Positions 14,422 to 38,887 of a DNA stretch of 64,000 nucleotides are shown piece by piece. The first letter of the stretch is position 1; each line of letters begins with the position of its first letter. Both the position numbers and the translations under genes were made by a program. Origin of the DNA: Gammaproteobacteria bacterium (GTDB lineage Bacteria; Pseudomonadota; Gammaproteobacteria; Pseudomonadales; JAUIET01); assembly GCA_030431775.1 (NCBI GenBank), contig JAUIHW010000011.1, forward strand, positions 1-64,000, in the 5' to 3' direction. The notes below the pieces were generated by a model. The model was not told the origin of the DNA. It saw only the letters and a program-made list of their open reading frames with translations, and did no database searches.

Positions 14422-14506
14422 GCCCAAGTGGTGGAATTGGTAGACACGCTATCTTGAGGGGGTAGTGGCGAAAGCCGTGCCGGTTCAAGTCCGGCCTTGG
14501 GCACCA
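14422..14506 (+). tRNA. leuU: tRNA-Leu(GAG)
   Basis: The 85-base gene includes the encoded CCA. The acceptor stem is GCCCAAG / CTTGGGC, the D-arm has GGTAGAC, the anticodon stem is CTATC / GGTAG with loop TTGAGGG giving GAG, there is a long variable arm as expected of tRNA-Leu, and the T-arm has GGTTCAAGTCC. It follows secG directly and is a common insertion site for integrases; the island on its 3' side carries an integrase remnant. Confidence 0.96.
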
Positions 14507-14684: not shown

Positions 14685-14924
14685 ATGGCAAGCCTGCGTA
14701 AACTCAAAAACAAGCGCTTTCTAGCGGAAGTCAGAAAGCATGGTTGTTACAAATCCAAAACCTTTGATGCCAAGGTTCAGGCGATGGCCTGGATTGCGGA
14801 AACGGAAGCGAGTCTCGCACCGGAGGGAATGATACACGGCAAGGTACTTGCCGATGCTCTGTCCCGTTACCACCAAGTTTGCGCTTGTTTGTTTTGGACT
14901 TGGTACTTTTTTTCTTGTGGTTAG
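14685..14924 (+). pseudogene. Truncated tyrosine integrase (N-terminal remnant)
   Basis: The 79-residue product begins like the N-terminal DNA-binding domain of tRNA-associated phage or island integrases (MASLRKLKNKRFLAEVRKHG, SKTFDAKVQAMAWIAETE) and reaches the start of the core-binding domain (LADALSRYHQ), then runs into unrelated hydrophobic residues and a stop. The whole catalytic domain with R-K-HxxR-H-Y is missing. A good ribosome site (AGAGGAAAC) precedes the ATG. Its place 178 bases after tRNA-Leu, reading away from it, is typical for an integrase that used that tRNA as attB. The truncation means the tRNA-proximal end of the island is fixed unless another recombinase acts. Confidence 0.75.
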
Positions 14925-14998: not shown

Positions 14999-15724
14999 TT
15001 ATTCTAGCAACCAGTCACCATACGCTTGAATATTAATCATCGGCACAGTGCCACTGAATTGCAGCTCAGAGATCAACTTGAATAAGAAGGCTGTTGCAGC
15101 TTTCGTCTCAGTCTGCACGTTAAACTGATCGCTTTCATTGTCATGATAGAAATATCCATGGCTTGCGACACAGCCTATATTTAGCAAAGAGTTGTGTTTC
15201 TCCATTTCTAGTTGATTTTTCAACGGCTCTCCCAGTGCGGGATTCCAGTCACTTTCCAGTGCTAAAATGCCACCCATGATAGGAATCAGTGGTTTTGGCG
15301 GGTATACACCGCCAGCATGTGGAATTGGTAAAGATGTCCGGTGTAGACTTCGAACGCTCTTAGCTTTCTCCTGCGCGTATTTAATCATCCCCAGGTTTAA
15401 AGTTTGCTTTGCTTCAAACACGGCATAGACACTTTCTGCAGGAATGATGGTTTGATCTTGATAATAAAATACAAATGGCGAATATTGCCGGTCAAAAACT
15501 ACCACATCAATTTGATCGCTAAAGACTCCATTACTATCGACAACAAAAGCGTTTGCTGCCTGATATCTTTTCGGAAGATAGGTATTTAGCAGGTCTAACC
15601 ATACCTTCTCACTACCATCTCCCTTTGCTCCAGGATGTGCGATAGATTTACGTACCGTAGATAATTGATGTTCAATATCTTTGTGAAGATTTTTTAGTAA
15701 CTCCGGGAGTGACCAATCACTCAT
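14999..15724 (-). CDS. nucC: CBASS effector endonuclease NucC
   Basis: The protein (241 residues) matches NucC in length and throughout its sequence. The restriction-endonuclease-type active site falls at Asp73 (QIDVVVFD), Glu104 and Lys106 (AVFEAKQ), the same numbers as in the characterised Escherichia coli enzyme, and Tyr81, next to the ligand pocket, is kept. In known systems NucC is a homotrimer that joins into a hexamer on binding cyclic tri-AMP and then cuts double-stranded DNA without sequence choice, killing the infected cell. It is the last gene of a four-gene operon (cdnC-cap7-cap6-nucC), two bases after cap6. The HPGAKGDGSEKVW and TSLPIPHAGGVYPPKPLIPI segments are also diagnostic. 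Confidence 0.94.
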   Translation of the reverse strand: MSDWSLPELLKNLHKDIEHQLSTVRKSIAHPGAKGDGSEKVWLDLLNTYLPKRYQAANAFVVDSNGVFSDQIDVVVFDRQYSPFVFYYQDQTIIPAESVYAVFEAKQTLNLGMIKYAQEKAKSVRSLHRTSLPIPHAGGVYPPKPLIPIMGGILALESDWNPALGEPLKNQLEMEKHNSLLNIGCVASHGYFYHDNESDQFNVQTETKAATAFLFKLISELQFSGTVPMINIQAYGDWLLE

Positions 15725-15726
15725 AT

Positions 15727-16659
15727 TTACTTCTCCAGAAATGGTGGTGTTGGCTCAATTCTTTGAGCGACCCTGAGAGCGCGGTCAGGTGTGATGGCCT
15801 TACTCGGATAGGCATCTAAAACGATGGCAGGTATTAGCCTTTGTGTAAGATCAGAAAAAGTAAATCCATATTTCCTATCCCCGTAAGGCCCTGTCGCTTC
15901 AACAACAGAATTTATCTGCGGCTGTGAAAACCCCAGTTGTGATAGTGGGGTATGAAGCACCGAGAAGCGTTGCTCTGTGTCCGGCCTATGGAATGTGAGT
16001 ATGTCTGCCGCACGTCTTTGGATAGCAGGATCAAGGGCATTCAGGCGATTTGTACACATAATAACTGCGGCTGGAAGCTGCCCGTTGGCAATCCGGTCAA
16101 TACCCCGGATAAACGCATTCACTCCGGCTTTGTCTTCGTGGTGCATCTGTGATGCTTCCCTGGACTGCGCCAAAGCATCAGCCTCATCAACCAGAAGAAT
16201 TACGCCGCCCCGAGATGCGCCGTTTGAAGACTTTAACTTCTGCGCTTCATTTACCGTGTATTCAAATGCACTGGAAATTAACTGTGTCATTTCACCGACT
16301 CGTCCTTGTCCACGACTGGAAAGGCTTAATGGTAGAAGAGTGATATCAATGTCTTCCTGACGTGCTATCGCATCACCAATCGTTTCAGCCAACTCGGACT
16401 TACCAGAGCCAACATCACCAGCCAATACAACAAGCGGTGGGCGCCGCAGAATCATATTTACGAGCTGGTCTGCTCCTGAATGGTGTCTTGCCGCCCATTG
16501 TTTTAGTCCTTGTGGATTTACCAACAGAGATAGCATTTTAGTTAGCCTGTCTTTGTGTTCATCAAGGCCAACCAGCCGATTAAGCCGCTCTTGTGCATCG
16601 AAATCGGGATAGGTTTTCGCAGCTTCAAAAAGGCCACTCATCGCTGTTGCTGTGTTCAT
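15727..16659 (-). CDS. cap6: TRIP13/Pch2-like AAA+ ATPase of CBASS
   Basis: The 310-residue protein is a single AAA+ module. Walker A is GDVGSGKS (81-88), Walker B ILLVDEAD (154-161), and sensor/arginine motifs follow in MCTNRLNALDPAIQRRAAD. In type III CBASS this TRIP13 relative remodels the HORMA protein: it separates HORMA from the nucleotide cyclase and so switches the system off until infection. Its start overlaps the HORMA gene stop by one base and its stop is two bases before nucC, so the four genes form a single tight operon. The family assignment rests on both the motifs and the exact neighbours. Confidence 0.92.
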   Translation of the reverse strand: MNTATAMSGLFEAAKTYPDFDAQERLNRLVGLDEHKDRLTKMLSLLVNPQGLKQWAARHHSGADQLVNMILRRPPLVVLAGDVGSGKSELAETIGDAIARQEDIDITLLPLSLSSRGQGRVGEMTQLISSAFEYTVNEAQKLKSSNGASRGGVILLVDEADALAQSREASQMHHEDKAGVNAFIRGIDRIANGQLPAAVIMCTNRLNALDPAIQRRAADILTFHRPDTEQRFSVLHTPLSQLGFSQPQINSVVEATGPYGDRKYGFTFSDLTQRLIPAIVLDAYPSKAITPDRALRVAQRIEPTPPFLEK

Positions 16660-17168
16660 TAAAAACTCCTTACGCTGGAACGTGATAATGATTTTCCTCC
16701 CGATGAATAGGTTTTATCATCCTCGATATAACCATCTATTCCCGGTGTATCAGCAGTCCCCCGATCAAAAGGCAATGTGTTGTTAAACTGCTCTTTTTCA
16801 CTTTCACTAAGGTCAAACCACGCGCTTGAGTATTCAAGGTAGCTATAAAACGAAGCCCCGGAAACATCCCGACCCGGTCTAACTCTACCCGGATCATCAT
16901 CGGCTGAGTGTTCAATGTCTATTGCACGATATATCAGGGTCGGCTCTATCCAGTTTCCGTTTTTCCTGAATCCATATGAAACTTTTTCCATATATCCGTG
17001 TTTTAGATATTGAGTTATTTCCTCCTCAAATTTTTCTATTTTGCTGTCACTGGGATAACCATAAAAACGTTGCATACGTTTAAGGTCTGTTGCCACCTTA
17101 GATGCGAGGCGTCTAGCATGGGTAATCGTAAATGTTTTGGATTCTGTTTCGGTAACACTAAAGCTCAT
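16659..17168 (-). CDS. cap7: Bacterial HORMA domain protein of CBASS
   Basis: The 169-residue protein has the length and layout of the single-HORMA (HORMA1) CBASS proteins: an N-terminal helix with THARRLASKVATDLKRMQRFYG, a central strand region (GNWIEPTLIYRAIDI), and a flexible, Ser/Lys/Arg-rich C-terminal tail (GGKSLSRSSVRSF) that would serve as the safety-belt or closure segment. In the known system the HORMA protein recognises a phage-derived peptide, closes around it and activates the nucleotide cyclase; Cap6 reopens it. HORMA proteins are poorly conserved, so the call relies partly on its position between a CdnC and a TRIP13 gene. It is 11 bases after cdnC. Confidence 0.88.
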   Translation of the reverse strand: MSFSVTETESKTFTITHARRLASKVATDLKRMQRFYGYPSDSKIEKFEEEITQYLKHGYMEKVSYGFRKNGNWIEPTLIYRAIDIEHSADDDPGRVRPGRDVSGASFYSYLEYSSAWFDLSESEKEQFNNTLPFDRGTADTPGIDGYIEDDKTYSSGGKSLSRSSVRSF

Positions 17169-17179
17169 TGCTGCTCACC

Positions 17180-18145
17180 TCACACCTGAAATGAAGGCCC
17201 AAAGACCTTTTGCCAGTAATATACGGTTTCTTGCTTAGAAGTCGCCGCGAGTGCTGAATCAATAGCGTCCCCGGCATCAAGCGCTGCATCAACGATCATG
17301 TCGGCCTGCGCATTCGTATACAAGTCACTCACGTTGTTCTCTTCATTGACGGGATCAATTATTTTAACTGGTGTTGTAATCGAACCAACTTTGTCTGGAG
17401 AATAATAGTCACTGAATACAATCAGTTCGCGCATGGCTGTTGTGGCGATATAGGTAAAGAAACTTTGCAGAGCCTCCGGGTAGTCAAAAAAACTCACGCC
17501 GTTGTCACTAAGCTTCGCAAGAATTAGTTCGATCATGAACGACTTGAAACGGAATCCATCCTTCTCACGTTTTTCTTTGCGTGCCCAATATTTTACTAAT
17601 CGAACAACCTGCGCAAAGTTCTGGTCATGCTTCTGCTTTCGCTTCTTAATAAAATCAAGATGAAGGGGAATACTGGTCTTCAGAAATGAGCCATCGTCCT
17701 GACTTACAAGATTCCCGTACCAGTTATCATCACCGTAATAAAGAATGGGGACGATATCGACATCAAGCCCTGAGCCTTTAAACGATACGGTAATGCTGTA
17801 GGTCTGTGGTTTTACCTGGTCGGGAGAGAAATTGGGGAATGCTTTACGCAGTCTCTCAGCGATGTATTCCAGCAATTTGGGAATGTCGGAAGGAGCATCT
17901 GCACCACTCACATAGCAGGCCACATCAATATCATTGAGTGTCCGAAGCGCTGTGCCCTTAGCCAGACTGCCGGACAACATCATCTTTTTAAGCGAGAAAT
18001 CCGGGTGTTCATTGAGGTAACTCTCCACTTTTTCCCTCAGTCTCCGTGCTTGCGCGCGGTATTCTTTGGCTTTGTCTGCGGGAAGATTCACCTTGTTTTG
18101 TGCGAAATCCGCTATGTCTTTGTGGCTCACGTGGTCGCGTGACAT
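17180..18145 (-). CDS. cdnC: CD-NTase CdnC, cyclic oligonucleotide synthase of CBASS
   Basis: From the ATG at 18145 (AGAGGT seven bases before) the protein has 321 residues. The nucleotidyltransferase motif is LSGSLAKGTALRTLNDIDVA with Gly59-Ser60 and catalytic Asp72 and Asp74; a third Asp is in GLDVDIVPI (about 128-130). The OAS-like C-terminal helical domain follows (YWARKEKREKDGFRFKSFMIELILAKL). Sequence and length agree with the clade C enzyme that makes cyclic tri-AMP when bound to a closed HORMA protein on DNA. Its product would activate NucC, encoded at the end of the same operon. An in-frame start at 18190 lies inside the operator region and is unlikely. Confidence 0.94.
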   Translation of the reverse strand: MSRDHVSHKDIADFAQNKVNLPADKAKEYRAQARRLREKVESYLNEHPDFSLKKMMLSGSLAKGTALRTLNDIDVACYVSGADAPSDIPKLLEYIAERLRKAFPNFSPDQVKPQTYSITVSFKGSGLDVDIVPILYYGDDNWYGNLVSQDDGSFLKTSIPLHLDFIKKRKQKHDQNFAQVVRLVKYWARKEKREKDGFRFKSFMIELILAKLSDNGVSFFDYPEALQSFFTYIATTAMRELIVFSDYYSPDKVGSITTPVKIIDPVNEENNVSDLYTNAQADMIVDAALDAGDAIDSALAATSKQETVYYWQKVFGPSFQV

Positions 18146-18172
18146 GTGCATACCTCTATAGAAATACCCAAA

Positions 18173-18245: not shown

Positions 18246-18270
18246 TTTTTTGTTGTCAGTTGGAGGTTCT

Positions 18271-18603
18271 ATGACAAAAACCGCTTTAGGAGCGAAAATT
18301 AGAGAGCTGAGAGAGAAGAAGAAATATACACTCGAAAAACTTGCGGATTTAGCCGGGTCTAGTAAAAGCTATATCTGGGAGCTGGAAAATAAAGCCCCAC
18401 CCCGACCATCCGCAGATAAACTATCGAAGATAGCCCACCATTTGGGCGTGACCATTGAGTATTTGATCGACGAAGAGGCCAGCATTACTGTGGAGGATGC
18501 TACGGACGCCAAGTTTTACCGGAAGTACCAGCAAATGGATTATAAAACCAAGGCCAAGATTCGGTCTATGGTAGATTTGTGGGATGAGGATGACGACGGA
18601 TAA
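18271..18603 (+). CDS. capH: HTH (XRE) repressor of CBASS, CapH-like
   Basis: The ATG at 18271 has GGAGG eight bases before and gives a 110-residue protein. Residues 5-65 are an XRE/cro-type helix-turn-helix (IRELREKKKYTLEKLADLAGSS, SYIWELENKAPPRPSADKLSKIAHHLGV), followed by a linker and a helical C-terminal part. The gene is divergent from cdnC and directly upstream of an ImmA/IrrE-type protease. This arrangement is the CapH-CapP module known to repress CBASS operons and release them after DNA damage, when CapP cuts CapH. The repeats at 18173-18245 are the natural operator. That it acts on this operon is inferred from position. Confidence 0.85.
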   Translation: MTKTALGAKIRELREKKKYTLEKLADLAGSSKSYIWELENKAPPRPSADKLSKIAHHLGVTIEYLIDEEASITVEDATDAKFYRKYQQMDYKTKAKIRSMVDLWDEDDDG

Positions 18604-19462
18604 AATGACCCCACAAAAATGGGCATTCCAGTTAACCCATATATTGAATGCCTATGCCTATGCCAATGAGCATGAGCGCTTCCCGGTCAATGTAAAGGCC
18701 ATAGCAAAAGATTTTTCCCACCATAAATATCCCGATGATCCCATTACCAAAGTTAAAGGCGCATCGTTTCCACGATTTGATGGAGGATTATTTAAAGCCC
18801 CGGCCGGAAAGACAGGCTGGGGCATTATTTACAACAATTCAATGCAATCCAAAGGGCGCATAAATTACACCCTGGCCCACGAATTGGGGCACTATCTGTT
18901 ACACAGAATGGATTACCCAAATGGTATTGAATGCGGCGAACAAGATATGGTTCGCTGGGACTCTGCGTTTGGGCAGATTGAGCATGAAGCCAATGTATTT
19001 GCCGCAAATCTTTTAATGCCGCTAGATGACTACCGGAAACAAATTGATCCAAAGACAGTAATTGACCTGGATATGATAGGCCACTGTGCTGATAGGTATG
19101 AAGTATCATTGATCGCAGCCGTATTAAGATGGATAGAATATACAGAGCGCCGCGCCGTTCTGGTGGTATCCCGTGACGGATTTATTCTTTGGGCGAGATC
19201 AAGTAAAGCCGCTTTCCGCAGCGGCATTTTTTTTAAAACGTCAAACCGCCCTCCGATTCCAATTCCAGCAGGTTCGTTAGCGTCAGGCCGTATAACCTCA
19301 GAAAACCAAAGACAGGGAATTGAACTTCCACCCGGAACCTGGTTTGAAGAAAGCTGTGCCGAAATGGTGGTATTTTCTGAGCTTTATGACTTTACCATTT
19401 CGGTACTGCAACTTGAGAACAATCCCGCTGGTTATTACCGTAAACAGGATGAAGAGGATTAG
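18584..19462 (+). CDS. capP: ImmA/IrrE-type metallopeptidase, CapP-like
   Basis: The protein (292 residues from the first ATG) has the zinc peptidase motif LAHELGHYLLH (His99, Glu100, His103) and the third-ligand helix EHEANVFAANLLMP near residues 133-146, as in ImmA/IrrE proteases. A C-terminal domain of about 110 residues follows, resembling a sensor domain. In the known CapH-CapP pair, CapP is stimulated by single-stranded DNA and cleaves the CapH repressor. The start could be the ATG at 18584, 18590 or 18605; the first two overlap capH and imply coupling. The gene is convergent with a recombinase 24 bases downstream. Confidence 0.87.
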   Translation: MRMTTDKMTPQKWAFQLTHILNAYAYANEHERFPVNVKAIAKDFSHHKYPDDPITKVKGASFPRFDGGLFKAPAGKTGWGIIYNNSMQSKGRINYTLAHELGHYLLHRMDYPNGIECGEQDMVRWDSAFGQIEHEANVFAANLLMPLDDYRKQIDPKTVIDLDMIGHCADRYEVSLIAAVLRWIEYTERRAVLVVSRDGFILWARSSKAAFRSGIFFKTSNRPPIPIPAGSLASGRITSENQRQGIELPPGTWFEESCAEMVVFSELYDFTISVLQLENNPAGYYRKQDEED

Positions 19463-19486: not shown

Positions 19487-20104
19487 CTAGCTCTCCCACA
19501 TTTGGGCGTATAGCGCACGCTTTTCTTTTCCCTGAGCATCGAGATATATAGAAGTGGTTTTCAAATCGGCATGGCCGAGCGCTTTTTGTAATTCAGTAAT
19601 CGGCGTCCCGGAAAGGACAGCAGCAATACCGTATGCGTGCCGAAGGCCTTTGGGTGTCGCGTGGGGTAGCCTCGTATCAATTCCAGCCTGTTCCATTACT
19701 TCTTTTACATTGCGCCACGCGGTAGTGCGTGACCAATTCCATAATTTGGGATATTTGCGCTGCTTTTGCTTCTCCCTCACCTCATGCACCATATCAAGAC
19801 TATCCAGATAGTCCGGTGGAACGGGCACAGGTCGGTAATGAATTTTCTGCCTTTTTTTGAGCGTCCTGAAGGTGATGGTTTGTTGCTGCAAATCGATCCG
19901 GTCTATTGTGGTTTCAAGTGCTTCGGTAATTCGGCAGCCAGTTATATGAAGTGCATGGCAAAAGGTTCTAACTTCACGGGAAGCCGTTTCTGCAGATTCA
20001 TAAAACGCCTTGCGTTCTTCTGGTGTTAAATACAGACGCTTCCCTTGATTATCATATAGTTGTTTTTCACTCATATGAAACGGAATACTAGAATTCTGTT
20101 TCAT
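19487..20104 (-). CDS. Small tyrosine recombinase (catalytic domain only)
   Basis: The protein (205 residues) is a stand-alone tyrosine recombinase catalytic domain. Arg58 (TGCRITEAL), Lys83/84, Arg155 (PKGLRHAYG), His178 (LGHADLKTT) and the nucleophile Tyr187 (SIYLD) are all present; the first His of the usual HxxR box is replaced by Lys, as in some mobile-element families. The core-binding and arm-binding domains of phage integrases are absent. The ATG at 20104 lies inside a 30-bp palindrome, and a second palindrome of the same half-site lies 68 bases further upstream. No clear ribosome site is seen; an ATG at 20074 is an alternative. It closes the CBASS module and is the only intact recombinase in the window, so it may have moved it. 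Confidence 0.85.
   Translation of the reverse strand: MKQNSSIPFHMSEKQLYDNQGKRLYLTPEERKAFYESAETASREVRTFCHALHITGCRITEALETTIDRIDLQQQTITFRTLKKRQKIHYRPVPVPPDYLDSLDMVHEVREKQKQRKYPKLWNWSRTTAWRNVKEVMEQAGIDTRLPHATPKGLRHAYGIAAVLSGTPITELQKALGHADLKTTSIYLDAQGKEKRALYAQMWES
20075..20104. repeat. 30-bp palindrome at the recombinase start (site 1)
   Basis: The half-site ATGAAACGGAAT is followed by the matching complement ending CTGTTTCAT; 13 of 15 base pairs are complementary. It covers the recombinase start codon. The 12-base arms with a short centre resemble a tyrosine-recombinase core site, but it could equally be an autoregulatory operator. Confidence 0.65.
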
Positions 20105-20171
20105 GTTCAACAAAAAAGCGCACTATAAATAAAAATGGGGAGCTGGAGAATCGTTCTGCAGGACGGTATTT

Positions 20172-20200
20172 TTGAAACAGAATTGCCCATACTGTTTCAA
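20172..20200. repeat. Second palindrome of the same half-site (site 2)
   Basis: TTGAAACAG (20172-20180) and CTGTTTCAA (20192-20200) are perfect complements around 11 bases. The half-site is the same as in site 1 (consensus TGAAACRGAAT), 67 bases away. Together they give four copies of one recognition sequence upstream of the recombinase. Confidence 0.65.
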
Positions 20201-20466
20201 GTATTGTTAGTTGACTCGCTTTAGCGAGTTAAAAAGGACTGCGTCCCCGCGCCGATCAAGAACTGGACGCAAGCGCAGTCGAGTACATTATTTTCCCCTC
20301 AGCCTGAAGGCTGATCCTCGCGCAACAAAATAATATTCCCGCCTGGTTCTTTGATCTTTGCTACCCGCCTGAGTCGCCCTCTGTCGTCAGAGATTTAAGA
20401 GCGCGTTCATTCGCAAGCTCATTAAACGGTTCTTAGAACCTCAACTTAGATTAAAGGATTAGAACA
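20201..20466. other. Non-coding stretch with a chain of hairpins before parB remnant
   Basis: No gene is seen here. Successive inverted repeats are ACTCGC/GCGAGT (from 20214), GACTGCG/CGCAGTC (20238-20244 with 20274-20280), ATTATTTT/AAAATAAT (20287-20294 with 20327-20334) enclosing TCAGCC/GGCTGA (20299-20314), CTCTG/CAGAG (20379-20392) and GGTTCT-T-AGAACC (20429-20441). It could be a structured leader or small RNA of the original mobile element; AAAGGATTAG lies before the parB ATG. Confidence 0.45.
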
Positions 20467-20691
20467 ATGACAATAAAATCAGTCAAACTATCTGACATCA
20501 TTTCACCAGAGAACAATCCTCGTAAAGCGTTTGACGATGCGACTATTCAGGGTTTAGCAGAGAGTATTGAACATGACGGACTGTTACAGAATCTTGTTGT
20601 AATGCAGAGCCAGGGAAAGAAATACCATATTATCAGTGGTGAAAGACGGTTCAGAGTGTCCCCGGAATTGCAAAAGCGATACTTTAATTAG
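20467..20691 (+). pseudogene. Truncated ParB-like N-terminal domain
   Basis: The 74-residue product starts as a ParB/Spo0J nuclease-like domain: VKLSDIISPENNPRKAFDDATIQGLAESIEHDGLLQNLVV and IISGERRFR, the ParB box II. Where the family continues with about 200 or more residues, the frame breaks off into VSPELQKRYFN and a stop, exactly where the repeat TGTCCCCGGAATT begins. It is therefore a decayed gene, probably cut by deletion or repeat insertion. Such ParB-like genes are common on plasmids and integrative elements, so it marks foreign DNA. Confidence 0.75.
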
Positions 20692-20710
20692 GTGTACTGT
20701 CCCCGGAATT
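20657..20710. repeat. 13-bp direct repeats TGTCCCCGGAATT
   Basis: Exact copies at 20657-20669 and 20698-20710 flank 28 bases. The first truncates the parB remnant and the second ends at the tetR stop. The TGTCCCC core recurs in inverted form at 43834-43868 and, imperfectly, at 52577-52607, so these may belong to one REP-like family. Confidence 0.5.
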
Positions 20711-20711
20711 C

Positions 20712-21305
20712 CTACCTGTTTTCCAATGCCGCATTGATCATCTTCGCAAGTTGAGGTGCGAATTCCTGTTTCAAATCGCTAAGGGTCGCGGTCCCGAAAA
20801 TGTTTTTGAGTGTTGGCTCGGAGATGCTGTAGTAATTTATGGCACCCAACAACTGGTAGACCAGCGCCAACGCTTCTGCGTCTTTCGCTGATTGCCATGT
20901 TGGAATGGCTTGAACCATGGCAATTAGCCTTTGCAGAAAGGGTTTTAGGTACCACGTACCAGCGCTATCTGCTCGGCGCTTGTTATCCAATAGCTCGCGC
21001 ATAAGTAATCGGGTTTGATCAGTGTGCGCTGTCGTATACACGTGAATGCGTACAAGATAACTCTTTAGTCGCTCTTCTGGGTCTTCAATGCTGTTGCTTT
21101 CATCAGCCAGTGCCTCAAATCGTTCTGAGATACGGCGGAGCACCTCAGCATACATTTTTTCTTTGCTGCCAAAGTGGTGCAGTAAAGCTTGTTTGGTCAA
21201 ATCCAGCTCGTCGGCTATAGCCGCAATGCTAACCCCATAGAATCCGCGCTCAGCGAACAGCCGCTCGGCCTCGTCGAGAAATTGTACTCGAGTGTCTTTT
21301 GTCAT
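20712..21305 (-). CDS. TetR/AcrR family transcriptional regulator
   Basis: From the ATG at 21305, with GGAAGGAGC in front, the protein has 197 residues. The N-terminal HTH is standard (RVQFLDEAERLFAERGFYGVSIAAIADELDLTKQALLHHFGSKEKMYAEV), and the helical C-terminal ligand domain (TRLLMRELLDNKRRAD) is of the type found in regulators of lipid or aromatic metabolism. It is divergent from a Rieske oxygenase gene, and the 113-base gap holds two copies of an operator-like palindrome, so it probably represses both genes. The ligand is unknown. Confidence 0.9.
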   Translation of the reverse strand: MTKDTRVQFLDEAERLFAERGFYGVSIAAIADELDLTKQALLHHFGSKEKMYAEVLRRISERFEALADESNSIEDPEERLKSYLVRIHVYTTAHTDQTRLLMRELLDNKRRADSAGTWYLKPFLQRLIAMVQAIPTWQSAKDAEALALVYQLLGAINYYSISEPTLKNIFGTATLSDLKQEFAPQLAKMINAALENR

Positions 21306-21418: not shown

Positions 21419-22552
21419 ATGAATCGTGAAACTGAACTTTCCCTGATTGACGAGTTGTTGGCTCTGAAAGCTAACAACGCAGCATTTTTGGATGAAAGCG
21501 TGGCGCGCAACCCCACCAGCCACTACGCTTGTGCAGAACGCTTTGGTAAAGAGCAAAAGCATATTTTCAGGCGTGTGCCGATTATTGCCGCACACTCGAG
21601 TGAGCTGGATGGCCCCGATGCATTTATAACCCGGGGTTTGAGCGGTCTGCCGGTGTTGATCACGCGGGATCAATCTGGCCAGGTGCATACGTTTATCAAC
21701 GTCTGTCGTCATCGCGGTACCCGCCTGGTTGACGATCTGGAGGGTTGCAAACATCGTTTTTCCTGCCCCTATCACGCATGGACTTATGACAGCACCGGTG
21801 ATCTCATCGCCGCGCCGCATTTTGAGCAAGGTTTTGGCGAGGAGCAGAAATCCAAGCTGGGTCTAAGCCGGCTGGAATGCGTAGAGCGCTATGGCTTTAT
21901 TTGGGTGCTACCCGCAGAAAATGTGCAGCTGGATCTGGATGTATATTTGGAAGGTATCGATGATGATCTTGAATCACTCTCCATCGACCAGATGGCCATC
22001 GCAGAGTGTCACACTGAAACCCGTAAAGCCAATTGGAAAATCCTGGTGGAAGGGGGCATAGAAGCCTATCACTTCCGCGTCGCGCACCGCACAACCATCG
22101 GGCCCCACTTCGAAAACAATCTGTCCTCCTATCGGCAATTTGGTCCGCATTTGCGCTCGATTCTGCCGCGCACGAGTATGGCCGATTTAGGCAGTGAAGC
22201 GCACGATAAGTGGCGATTGCGTGATCATGCCAACGTCCTGTACACAGTGTTTCCGACAAGTCAGCTTCTGGTACAGCAGGACCACATAGTCTGGATCAGT
22301 CAGGAACCGATATCGGTTGGAGAGACGCGTCTTAGACTGGCCACGCTGGTGCCGCAATGCCGCTTAGCCGATGAAGCGCACTGGAAACGTAATCACGCCA
22401 TTACAACTGCCACGTTGCTAGAAGATTTCGATATTGGTGAAAGTATTCAAGCAGGCGTGGGTAGCGGTGCAAACGACAGCATGTTGTTTGGTCGCTTCGA
22501 AGGCGCACTGGATAAATTCAACTGCACCGTTGACAGGTACCTGAATGTCTAA
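21419..22552 (+). CDS. Rieske [2Fe-2S] aromatic-ring-hydroxylating oxygenase, alpha subunit type
   Basis: The ATG at 21419, preceded by GGGAGCC, gives 377 residues. The Rieske cluster ligands are C-x-H in CRHRGTRLVD and C-x2-H in CPYHAWTYD; the catalytic domain has the iron ligands in EAYHFRVAHRT (His and His) and a late acidic ligand. Such enzymes use O2 and electrons from a reductase to hydroxylate or demethylate aromatic, quaternary amine or sterol-like substrates. No reductase or ferredoxin gene is nearby, so electrons must come from elsewhere. The gene is alone after the TetR operators and is followed by the tRNA promoter. The substrate cannot be told. Confidence 0.9.
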   Translation: MNRETELSLIDELLALKANNAAFLDESVARNPTSHYACAERFGKEQKHIFRRVPIIAAHSSELDGPDAFITRGLSGLPVLITRDQSGQVHTFINVCRHRGTRLVDDLEGCKHRFSCPYHAWTYDSTGDLIAAPHFEQGFGEEQKSKLGLSRLECVERYGFIWVLPAENVQLDLDVYLEGIDDDLESLSIDQMAIAECHTETRKANWKILVEGGIEAYHFRVAHRTTIGPHFENNLSSYRQFGPHLRSILPRTSMADLGSEAHDKWRLRDHANVLYTVFPTSQLLVQQDHIVWISQEPISVGETRLRLATLVPQCRLADEAHWKRNHAITTATLLEDFDIGESIQAGVGSGANDSMLFGRFEGALDKFNCTVDRYLNV

Positions 22553-22638: not shown

Positions 22639-22671
22639 TCACGCCCCTTCTGAGGAGGGTGCCAGTTTTGA

Positions 22672-22743
22672 TGCGGGGTGGGCAGTCAGATAGTTTGTTG
22701 GGCTCCCAACCCGCAAAAGCCGAAGGTTACCGACCTTCGGCTT
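22672..22743 (+). pseudogene. Decayed 5' half of tRNA-fMet turned into tandem hairpins
   Basis: Bases 22672-22713 align with the first 43 or so bases of the intact tRNA-fMet at 22796, including the upstream TTTGA, but the anticodon loop reads CTCCCAA instead of CTCATAA and no variable or T-arm follows. Instead GCGGGGTGGG (22673-22682) pairs with CCCAACCCGC (22705-22714, one mismatch), and AAGCCGAAGGT (22717-22727) pairs perfectly with ACCTTCGGCTT (22733-22743). It cannot be a working tRNA, but would be made as part of the tRNA-fMet precursor. Confidence 0.7.
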
Positions 22744-36901: not shown

Positions 36902-38887
36902 ATGAAATACTTTGTTACCGGTGGTACCGGGTTTATTGGCAAATACATGGTGCAAAAGCTGCTGGAGCGTGGCGGCACGGTTTATTGCCTGGTCCGCAAG
37001 TCATCCATAAAGAAGTTTCAGGAGCTGCGTGAATGGACCGGGGCCAGCGAAAAGAAGCTGATTCCGGTTTATGGTGATCTCGCCAAAAAGAAACTGGGCC
37101 TGGCGAAGGCCGATGTGGAAAACTTGCAAGGAAAAATCGGCCATTTTTACCACCTGGCGGCAATCTATGATTTGCGAGCATCGGCTGAGAGCCAGCTGGT
37201 TGCCAATGTGGAGGGTACCCGTAATGCGGTGCAATGCGCCGAGCAACTCAAAGCCAAGAGCTTCCAACACGTCAGTTCCATTGCAGCAGCGGGTAAGTAC
37301 CTCGGAACGTTTCGCGAGGATATGTTCGAGGAAGCCGGCGAACTGAACCATCCGTATTTCCGAACCAAGCATGACTCGGAAGCCATCGTTCGCAGAGAAT
37401 GCTCGATTCCCTGGAGGGTTTATCGCCCGGCGTCGGTGGTTGGCCACTCGCAAACCGGTGAAATCGATAAAGTAGATGGCCCTTACTACAGTTTCAAAGT
37501 GTTGCAGAAAATGCGCGATGTGCTGCCGCCCTGGTTCCCGCTGATTGGCGTCGATTCCGGCAGCTTCAATGTGGTACCGGTTGATTACGTTGTTGATGCA
37601 ATGGACTATATCGCCCACCAGAAGGGTTATGACGGGCAATGCTTCCACCTCACTAACCCTGATCACTACACCTCGGGAGAGCTGCTAAATATTATTGCTG
37701 ATGCGGCGCATGCACCCCGTTTTGCTATTCGTCTTGATACCAAAATCTTTTCCTTCGTTCCGACAGGGCTCACCTCCATGCTGGCCAAGCTACCACCGGT
37801 GCGTCGCCTGCTCGATTCCACTCTCGAAGGTTTCGGCATGCCCGCAGACGCCGCCTTGTTTTTCAGCTGGACCACGCGTTATGACAACCGCGATACCGTG
37901 CGTGCTCTGGAGGGCAGCGGCATTGAAGTGCCCAAGCTGCACAGCTACGCAGCGAAGTTGTGGGATTTCTGGGAACGCAATCTGGATCCTGACCTGTTTA
38001 TTGACCGTACTCTCAAAGGTAATGTGGCAGGCAAGGTGGTGGTGATTACCGGTGCCGGCAGCGGTATTGGCCTGTCGGCGGCGCTTCGTCTGGCCGAGGC
38101 GGGTGCCCGGCTTGTGATTTGCGGGCGCACTCTGGAGAAGCTGAAAGAAGCCAGGAAACAGATCAAGGCTGTTGGTGGTGAGGTGCATATCTACGCCGCT
38201 GACCTGGCGGATATGGACTCCTGCGACCGCTTCATGGCGCAGGTACTCAAGGACCATGGTCAGGTGGATATTCTGATCAACAACGCCGGGCGCTCCATTC
38301 GCCGCGCGGTCGAGGACTCTTACGACCGCTTTCACGACTTTGAGCGCACCATGCAGATCAACTACTACGGCGCGCTGCGTTGCAGTCTGGCAGTACTGCC
38401 AGGAATGAGCGAACGCAAGGCCGGCCAGATCATCAATATATCGTCCATGGGTGTGGTTGGCCCTCCGGCCCGTTTCTCAGCGTACATCGCGTCCAAATCG
38501 GCGCTCGAAGGTTGGACGCGTTGCGCCGAGGCGGAGTTTTGTGACCGTGGCATTAGTTTCACCAATATCAATATGCCACTGGTCAAAACACCCATGATCA
38601 GTCCCACCAAGGCCTATGAATATGCGCCTACACTGACCCCGGAGGAGGCGGCCGACCTGGTGGTGGACGCGGTCATACATAAGCCCAGCCGTGTAACTAC
38701 CGGCATGGGCCGGATGTTCCAGATTTTGCATGTGATTGCGCCCAAGCTTGCGGCCAGCATGATGAACATGCCCTTCAGAATGTTCGATGAGAAAAAGGCC
38801 ATGGAAGCGATTGATAAGAGTAAAACGGATGAGCCCAGCTCCGAACAGGTAGCACTGGCGTCATTAATGAAAGGTGTGCACTATTAA
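36902..38887 (+). CDS. Fatty acyl-CoA reductase (alcohol-forming), two-domain FAR
   Basis: From the ATG at 36902 (GAGGG upstream) the protein has 661 residues, and it joins two SDR domains. The N-terminal extended domain has YFVTGGTGFIGKYMVQ, the YGDL and HLAAIYD strands, HVSSIAAAG and YFRTKHDSE (Tyr-x3-Lys, about 152-156). The C-terminal classical domain has VITGAGSGIG (about 380), NNAGRSIRR and YIASK (about 528-532). Length, linker (WERNLDPDLFIDRTLKG) and both domains match the Marinobacter aquaeolei FAR that reduces fatty acyl-CoA to fatty alcohol in two NADPH steps. Its product is the alcohol substrate of the WS/DGAT 5 kb upstream. Confidence 0.9.
   Translation: MKYFVTGGTGFIGKYMVQKLLERGGTVYCLVRKSSIKKFQELREWTGASEKKLIPVYGDLAKKKLGLAKADVENLQGKIGHFYHLAAIYDLRASAESQLVANVEGTRNAVQCAEQLKAKSFQHVSSIAAAGKYLGTFREDMFEEAGELNHPYFRTKHDSEAIVRRECSIPWRVYRPASVVGHSQTGEIDKVDGPYYSFKVLQKMRDVLPPWFPLIGVDSGSFNVVPVDYVVDAMDYIAHQKGYDGQCFHLTNPDHYTSGELLNIIADAAHAPRFAIRLDTKIFSFVPTGLTSMLAKLPPVRRLLDSTLEGFGMPADAALFFSWTTRYDNRDTVRALEGSGIEVPKLHSYAAKLWDFWERNLDPDLFIDRTLKGNVAGKVVVITGAGSGIGLSAALRLAEAGARLVICGRTLEKLKEARKQIKAVGGEVHIYAADLADMDSCDRFMAQVLKDHGQVDILINNAGRSIRRAVEDSYDRFHDFERTMQINYYGALRCSLAVLPGMSERKAGQIINISSMGVVGPPARFSAYIASKSALEGWTRCAEAEFCDRGISFTNINMPLVKTPMISPTKAYEYAPTLTPEEAADLVVDAVIHKPSRVTTGMGRMFQILHVIAPKLAASMMNMPFRMFDEKKAMEAIDKSKTDEPSSEQVALASLMKGVHY

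Follow-up and report, generated by a model that had tools for sequence, protein, structure and literature searches.

A catalytic-domain-only tyrosine recombinase with a phased pair of palindromes: a candidate res-like resolution module in a chromosomal island

Results

A small recombinase gene behind two palindromes

The window, by which we mean the whole 64-kb stretch of DNA analysed here, carries a gene for a small tyrosine recombinase that is directly preceded by two palindromes, P against the start codon and D farther out, in the company of a CBASS block and of fragments of an integrase gene and of a parB gene (Table 1).

Table 1. Features of the window around the recombinase gene
Feature	Position	Strand	Basis or reading
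Integrase N-terminal fragment, just after tRNA-Leu(gag)	14685..14921	plus	tblastn
CBASS block: DUF6602, AAA ATPase, HORMA, CD-NTase	14999..18148	minus	adjacent, without flanking D/P sites
Catalytic-domain-only tyrosine recombinase, 195 aa	19487..20074	minus	PF00589, homologues, start comparison, AF2 model
P, start-codon-proximal palindrome, 11-6-11, 28 bp	20076..20103		read as accessory site and operator; conserved in relatives
Spacer between P and D	20104..20172		D–P centre-to-centre 96.5 bp, about nine turns
D, distal palindrome, 11-5-11, 27 bp	20173..20199		read as crossover core; similarity to relatives stops at or inside D
ParB N-terminal fragment, 74 aa, beyond D	20467..20691	plus	PF02195, E 5.5e-16

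An earlier note on this DNA had described the recombinase as reduced to its catalytic domain, and our comparisons agree: PF00589 is its sole Pfam domain (residues 25–191 of a 205-residue version, E 8.8e-20), and a profile of the family matches XerA only from around residue 103 of the latter, with just 11 profile positions preceding, so that both the core-binding and the arm-binding domain are absent. XerA is also the best PDB match of an AlphaFold (AF2) model with a mean pLDDT of 87.6. The residues expected of a PF00589 tyrosine recombinase, R48, K73, R145, H168 and Y177, are invariant in 30/30 sequences, and K142 occupies the usual His position of box II, the residue roles being assigned by eye. 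Relatives of the protein are currently annotated only as 'site-specific integrase'. The length of 205 aa given in that note, with a start inside the palindrome, corresponds to an in-frame ATG at 20104 and has to be revised: the most likely start codon is ATG 20074–20072, just after P, because the ORFs of both closest homologues (L037 and L038) open just after P and encode 195 aa each, and because an in-frame start lies −3 to +12 nt from the end of P in 48 of 52 loci, the window included.

Both palindromes lie where they had been reported. At its widest P extends over 20075–20104 (30 bp, 13/15 pairs) and D over 20172–20200 (29 bp, 12/14 pairs), which leaves 67 bases between them, or 69 between the core extents of Table 1, and the centre of P (6) is one base longer than that of D (5). 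Their joint four-half-site score is 54, against a maximum of 41 in 30 shuffles of the window's own upstream DNA. The half-site TGAAACRGAAT had been ascribed to both palindromes, which needs correcting in that D has one TGAAACAGAAT arm and one TGAAACAGTAT arm. TGAAACRGAAT occurs 10 times in the 4.67-Mb genome, where about 4 copies are expected in random sequence by our estimate; the four-half-site arrangement is unusual, while the half-site by itself is not rare.

A second D-type site turned up neither in the 64-kb window, where the best other match reaches 16/20 (reversed control, 1), nor in the genome by a pattern search allowing up to 3 mismatches, beyond one 3-mismatch match that lies inside a gene (G000:C55:55230) and was taken as chance. 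The same pattern has one 3-mismatch match in G001, the only further genome of the genus that we looked at, and a 2-mismatch match in G011 (G011:C452:14073), which is surrounded by ordinary chromosomal genes and was likewise set aside as chance.

The gene lies in a chromosomal island

The recombinase gene sits in a chromosomal island that lies between tRNA-Leu(gag), at 14422–14506, and tRNA-Met. The integrase fragment next to tRNA-Leu is 37.9% identical over residues 1–62 to Acinetobacter site-specific integrases (tblastn, E 4e-3, 6 records); a Pfam search returned no match for it and PHROG a weak one of unknown function (E 0.014). The fragment is likely what is left of the integrase by which the island arrived. 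In G001 the 3′ end of tRNA-Leu and tRNA-Met enclose about 8.8 kb of different genes. Given the integrase fragment beside tRNA-Leu and the different genes at this place in G001, the vehicle of the island was probably a tRNA-targeting integrase, now truncated, and not the small recombinase. Direct repeats of at least 13 bp between the tRNA-Leu region and the rest of the island were not found.

In the CBASS block a DUF6602 protein stands in place of an effector, together with the HORMA and AAA genes, and in the interval between CBASS and recombinase (18250–19462) a gene for an HTH regulator overlaps one for an IrrE-like metallopeptidase. We read the ParB fragment beyond D as a remnant of another plasmid-like backbone. 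Its non-coding leader (20200–20466) contains imperfect inverted repeats, noticed by eye, and the leader region beyond D gave no match to plasmids at E≤1e-5. Two copies of tgtccccggaatt, which looks like a REP-type repeat, flank the point at which the parB gene is cut (20658–20713), and a further 28-bp match (93%) lies in C94 of the genome. Upstream of tRNA-Met, 22667–22713 is 83% identical to the tRNA-Met region of G001 and may be a partial tRNA copy.

Relatives on plasmids and contigs of several phyla

The nearest relatives, 81% and 75% identical, are two copies in G011, both with the same two palindromes and with a divergent ParA-like ATPase gene and a RepA gene adjoining. Beyond these, plasmids and contigs from several phyla carry relatives. 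At E≤1e-30 a family member is found in 40 of 72,556 plasmid records, 35 of these 40 being under 150 kb, and at E≤1e-5 in at least 5000, those beyond the 40 being more distant; all 12 plasmids that were fetched whole carry a Rep and/or a ParA gene. The family is uncommon in whole genomes (3/369 of the class and 12/398 of the phylum at E≤1e-25, window included). Genome contigs, which gave no match with one protein as the query, yielded at least 482 relatives with an alignment as the query, of which 80 were kept; these come from Alphaproteobacteria, Bacteroidota, Verrucomicrobia and others, and many are MAG contigs. From these 80 genome loci we used 79, together with 14 of 28 fetched viral-contig loci, the window, the two G011 copies, 17 plasmid loci and 14 loci of the class and phylum searches; L118, L143 and the last 13 viral loci (23–32% identical) were left out, and L140 was too short. 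The set contains one plasmid twice (L034 = L184) and two identical pairs (L121/L134 and L139/L141). As a side observation, Thioclava plasmid p5 carries a CBASS-like nucleotidyltransferase/SAVED pair about 3.4 kb from its family recombinase (L183, 31428–38296), and several other plasmids with a family recombinase carry restriction, CRISPR or Abi genes.

The double site is conserved with phased spacing

We scanned up to 290 bases around each recombinase start for two palindromes with four alike half-sites and a centre distance of 45–200 bp, and scored 126 loci, for which 3780 shuffles over all scored loci gave a maximum of 51 and a 99th percentile of 44. At a score of at least 44 a pair is present in 62 of the 126 loci, 55 of them within four clusters of D–P spacing (84.5–86.5, 94.5–97.5, 107.5–109 and 127–130 bp) that correspond to near-whole helix turns; at 45 or more there are 54 loci, 50 of which fall in the clusters. 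After de-duplication 44 of 47 remain in the clusters, the exceptions being 71, 121.5 and 151. The phase concentration R is 0.85 for all 47, which was reached by 0 of 20,000 uniform draws, a test that is too generous because the 47 loci are related; with each distinct spacing counted once R is 0.70, again reached by 0/20,000. The best-fit period, 11.05 bp, is close to the helical repeat but exceeds 10.5 bp. On a quick protein tree of 55 sequences, from which three short rows were dropped and to which three loci with a site further upstream were added, the spacing class changes at least 12 times, although 19 of the 50 inner branches are weak and some branches are long. One clade of Labrenzia and viral-contig loci (L121, L134, L135, L137, L138, L139 and L141) combines a 127-bp spacing with an odd centre in both palindromes.

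Across 43 sites of standard parity D has the consensus TKWAACACTAT-NNNNN-ATAGTGTTWMR, and P is less conserved inside than D. The centre of D, of 4–5 bp, is variable between strongly conserved arms, which fits the overlap region expected of a crossover core. The outer half-sites of D and P resemble each other more within a locus (6.26 of 7 positions) than between loci (4.85; permutation maximum 5.40), a covariation inflated by the scan, which itself selected similar arms. An IHF motif is not enriched in the D–P spacer (4/52, against 2.2 in shuffles).

An in-phase pair scoring at least 44 is absent near the gene in 71 of the 126 loci. Seven loci reach the score out of phase, at 50.5 (twice, same plasmid), 59.5, 61, 71, 121.5 and 151 bp, and L080 has an out-of-phase pair at 121 bp with a score of 48. 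Three of the 71 (L057, L067 and L075) have an in-phase pair, spaced by 84.5 bp, 271–731 bp upstream, and lone D-type palindromes occur in L164, L166, L170, L174 and L034. In the Acetobacter and Komagataeibacter loci, which offer at most 1.8 kb before and 0.9 kb after the gene start and are in some cases cut short by contig ends, no pair was convincing.

Similarity between relatives ends at D

Among 338 pairs of loci that can be aligned as DNA across the end of P into the gene, 317 lose similarity at or inside D, 203 between D and P and 114 at D itself (−15 to +5), in counts that use single alignments and could miss similarity resuming further out. The 21 pairs that pass D by more than 15 bp all belong to the seven-locus clade with the odd centres. 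On the downstream side there are 292 pairs that do not belong to that clade; similarity extends beyond the stop codon by more than 50 bp in 93 of them and is lost at about the stop codon in 165. Since 203 of the 317 end between D and P and 165 of the 292 about the stop codon, the alignments ending at D could partly reflect that D is the last constrained element. Between the window and L038 similarity is lost about 10 bp outside D.

Extra D-type sites and exchanged blocks in Shewanella plasmids

For 11 complete plasmids the scan for palindromes used the half-sites of the plasmid itself, for L187 those of L186. At a threshold of 17/20 nine of the 11 hold only their own pair (of which just D was recovered in L177 and L180), and a third, D-type palindrome appears in L182 (18/20) and L185 (17/20), both from Shewanella. 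Over the 12 complete plasmids extra D-type palindromes are clear in three (L182, L185 and L187) and weak in one (L175, 17/20, from a scan with pooled Shewanella half-sites in which scattered chance matches also reach that level); all four are Shewanella plasmids, and at 17/20 or more neither the seven non-Shewanella plasmids nor the Shewanella plasmid L186 has such a site. Over 50 loci (566,871 bases) there were three extra palindromes and one in the reversed control. With a full Shewanella D–P site as the query we found 44 places in 26 plasmid records, all from Shewanella, of which 5 encode the recombinase at E≤1e-30; orphan D–P pairs, with no recombinase gene, occur in Shewanella plasmids. 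A search for orphan sites in Rhodobacterales, with one site as the query, found no other plasmid.

L186 and L187 are 97.3% identical over 1571 bp in a block that ends 2 bp outside D, and share a second block (801 bp, 98.4%) that begins 2.1 kb further in L186 and 1.4 kb further in L187, the intervening segments (about 2.1 and 1.4 kb) having no mutual similarity. The second block starts in L187 inside a solitary D-type site (22498–22524) and in L186 at the matching arm GTCTGATTCA, the other arm being missing. In these alignments a segment is replaced exactly between D and the solitary D-type site or its remaining arm. L187 has two further D-type palindromes (37353–37379 and 38218–38244) that bound a HigB toxin gene and an adjoining regulator gene, and pS19503 and pSXM33 each have a solitary D-type site on the far side of a single gene next to D.

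The plasmid pS22302 (L195) has three full sites and shares with pS18501 (L202) 1303 bp at 96.2% identity that begin 18 bp outside D and extend inward; farther out there is no similarity between the two (4 kb compared with 3 kb), one having type I restriction and SIR2 genes beyond D and the other caspase and TIR genes. In pS18501 TIR and caspase-family genes occupy 14–1371, outside a D site. The two plasmids share another 2348 bp (93.7%) that stop at the centre of a D; there L202 retains just the inner half of D, and an IS5-like gene follows after 80 bp. Of the 26 best Shewanella places, 5 have the orphan pair overlapping a gene annotated as 'recombinase family protein', and the genes next to the pair in L193 and L195 encode serine recombinases (PF00239): that of L193 starts 184 bp after P, whereas the 3′ end of that of L195 (30965–31606) runs through the P of the orphan site.

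Discussion

We consider it moderately probable that the gene and its paired palindromes form a plasmid-type, self-contained, res-like module for site-specific resolution that has been left behind in a chromosomal island. The small tyrosine recombinase would bind the four half-sites of the two palindromes, D would be the crossover core at which strands are exchanged, and P would be an accessory site that helps to build a topologically selective complex and that also represses the recombinase gene. We assign D and P these roles because their anatomy matches the logic of the res sites of Tn3 and Sin. Contacts between the proteins on D and those on P would impose the phasing, in that the two sites need a matching helix face and the spacing could then shift only by near-whole turns, and the normal job of the module would be the resolution of plasmid dimers or cointegrates. 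The Rep and ParA neighbours, the conserved pair, its phasing and the alignments that end at D all support plasmid resolution. In its chromosomal setting the copy in the window may have no task, and the exchange of segments in Shewanella suggests that resolution may not be the sole role.

That exchange is the starting point of a different explanation, in which D sites are attachment points where the recombinase, in cis or in trans, joins and swaps modules between plasmids (toxin–antitoxin, restriction, Abi and others) in the manner of pdif modules or integrons, with resolution secondary. It would account for the near-identical flanks of L186 and L187 around unrelated segments bounded by D and a solitary D-type site or arm, for the two D-type sites around the HigB module of L187 and the solitary sites of pS19503 and pSXM33, for the many D–P places in Shewanella records of which few encode the recombinase, and for the block that L195 and L202 share from near D inward with different defence genes outside. 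The second block common to L186 and L187 led us to give this explanation, like the platform proposal below, more weight, and the resolution and operator readings less. Set against it, all of these cases come from Shewanella, extra D-type sites being found in 0/7 complete non-Shewanella plasmids and the one Rhodobacterales query matching no other plasmid; the centres of full and solitary sites differ, which is normally a hindrance to exchange by a tyrosine recombinase; the window is without a second site; and the end of the 2348-bp block at a half D can be explained by an IS, given the IS5-like gene nearby. Cargo exchange at D-type sites is to our mind a fair reading of the Shewanella alignments and a serious second reading, while as the explanation of the system as a whole it strikes us as rather unlikely. 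The related proposal that a catalytic-domain-only recombinase and a phased double site constitute an undescribed mobile-module platform, with orphan or solitary D sites as joints for trading plasmid gene blocks (toxin–antitoxin and anti-phage defence genes among them) and the window as a stranded copy, is possible, and we entertain it tentatively.

P abuts the translation start in 48/52 loci and phased operator pairs are known from looping repressors, as would suit palindromes that only autoregulate the recombinase, whose real target would then lie elsewhere. The pair is, however, not only a promoter operator, since orphan D–P pairs persist with no gene in Shewanella plasmids; the alignments end at D, and the seven non-Shewanella plasmids hold no other candidate site in a scan that used only their own half-site sequences, which leaves a purely regulatory role very improbable. 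We give still less credence, indeed hardly any, to the idea that the pair belongs to serine resolvases and that the tyrosine recombinase gene is a passenger: the 'recombinase family protein' genes that overlap the orphan pair and the position of the L193 pair upstream of a PF00239 gene would fit, but the pair lies near the tyrosine recombinase gene in 55 loci, several phyla among them, and in L195 and L202 it is at the 3′ end of the serine recombinase gene and not upstream.

Returning to a res-like module as the explanation that we favour, the view of the earlier note that the palindromes look like recombination sites and not mere promoter parts is borne out by the occurrence of the pair across phyla, its phasing, the alignments ending at D and the orphan pairs of Shewanella. 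Its suggestion that the recombinase mobilises the CBASS block finds no counterpart in the window or the genome, where a second D-type site is missing, and we reject a CBASS cassette moved by the small recombinase at this locus; the palindrome that was expected to recur at the ends of cargo does so in Shewanella (clearly in L182, L185 and L187, weakly in L175) but neither in the seven non-Shewanella plasmids nor in L186.

The feature is real and conserved, and it is apparently an undescribed variant of the tyrosine-recombinase resolution systems; a literature search, outside which most subscription journals lay, returned no paper that we recognised as describing the recombinase family or its site. 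If our interpretation is correct, a tyrosine recombinase can dispense with everything but its catalytic domain and yet be controlled by the geometry of its DNA, with neither an arm domain nor, as far as we have seen, helper proteins, and would serve as a dedicated resolver of plasmid dimers or cointegrates with a spacing phase rule that is directly testable. Comparison of plasmids supports the exchange of blocks at D in Shewanella alone, where the sites mark the points at which gene blocks, some with defence and addiction genes, have been traded.

Among known systems, the FimB/FimE-type invertases, proteins of about 200 aa that lack a core-binding domain and invert a promoter segment, are like our recombinase in small size and domain content; it scores, however, 34.1 and 36.6 bits against their NCBIfam models (PRK09870/PRK09871), whose cut-offs are 221 and 222. 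Simple tyrosine recombinases, including Brujita Int, share the lack of an arm-binding domain, but their description (PMC8138268) gives them a core-binding and a catalytic domain, whereas the catalytic domain stands alone here, which places the recombinase outside that group.

The closest parallels lie in the organization of the site. According to PMC7157771, the tyrosine resolvase TnpI of Tn4430 and Tn5401 acts at irs, whose core inverted repeats are accompanied by the accessory repeats DR1 and DR2, and TnpI expression is modulated by its own binding. The site just upstream of the recombinase's own gene is shared with the locus studied here, and so, on our reading, are the inverted-repeat core, the accessory repeats and autoregulation. 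In contrast, DR1 and DR2 are direct repeats and the element encodes a transposase, while here the accessory site would be a second palindrome, the enzyme is without a core-binding domain, and no Tn3-family transposase is found among the ten proteins of 15.0–22.6 kb around the recombinase, so that the locus does not belong with TnpI/irs. In the res site of Tn3 the crossover takes place at site I, at a distance from the resolvase gene, an accessory site lies close to the gene, and the system is autoregulated; Sin makes do with a single accessory site (PMC7157771, PMC9943657). Exchanges of toxin–antitoxin modules in the Tn3 family have left breaks of homology at res site I (PMC7157771). The distal crossover site, the gene-proximal accessory site and the break of homology at the crossover site are, on our reading, all mirrored by D and P, but the chemistry there is that of serine recombinases and the proteins are unrelated. 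Finally, the xrs and pdif sites of XerCD, according to PMC11724359, are pseudo-palindromes of about 28 bp with 11-bp arms that flank modules and serve plasmid dimer resolution, much like the sites described here as we read them. A pdif or dif-like module has at least two sites flanking cargo, an arrangement found only in the Shewanella relatives, the window having a single D–P pair; and where XerCD sites depend on the chromosomal pair XerC and XerD, the system outlined here would combine one plasmid-borne enzyme with a core and a phased accessory palindrome.
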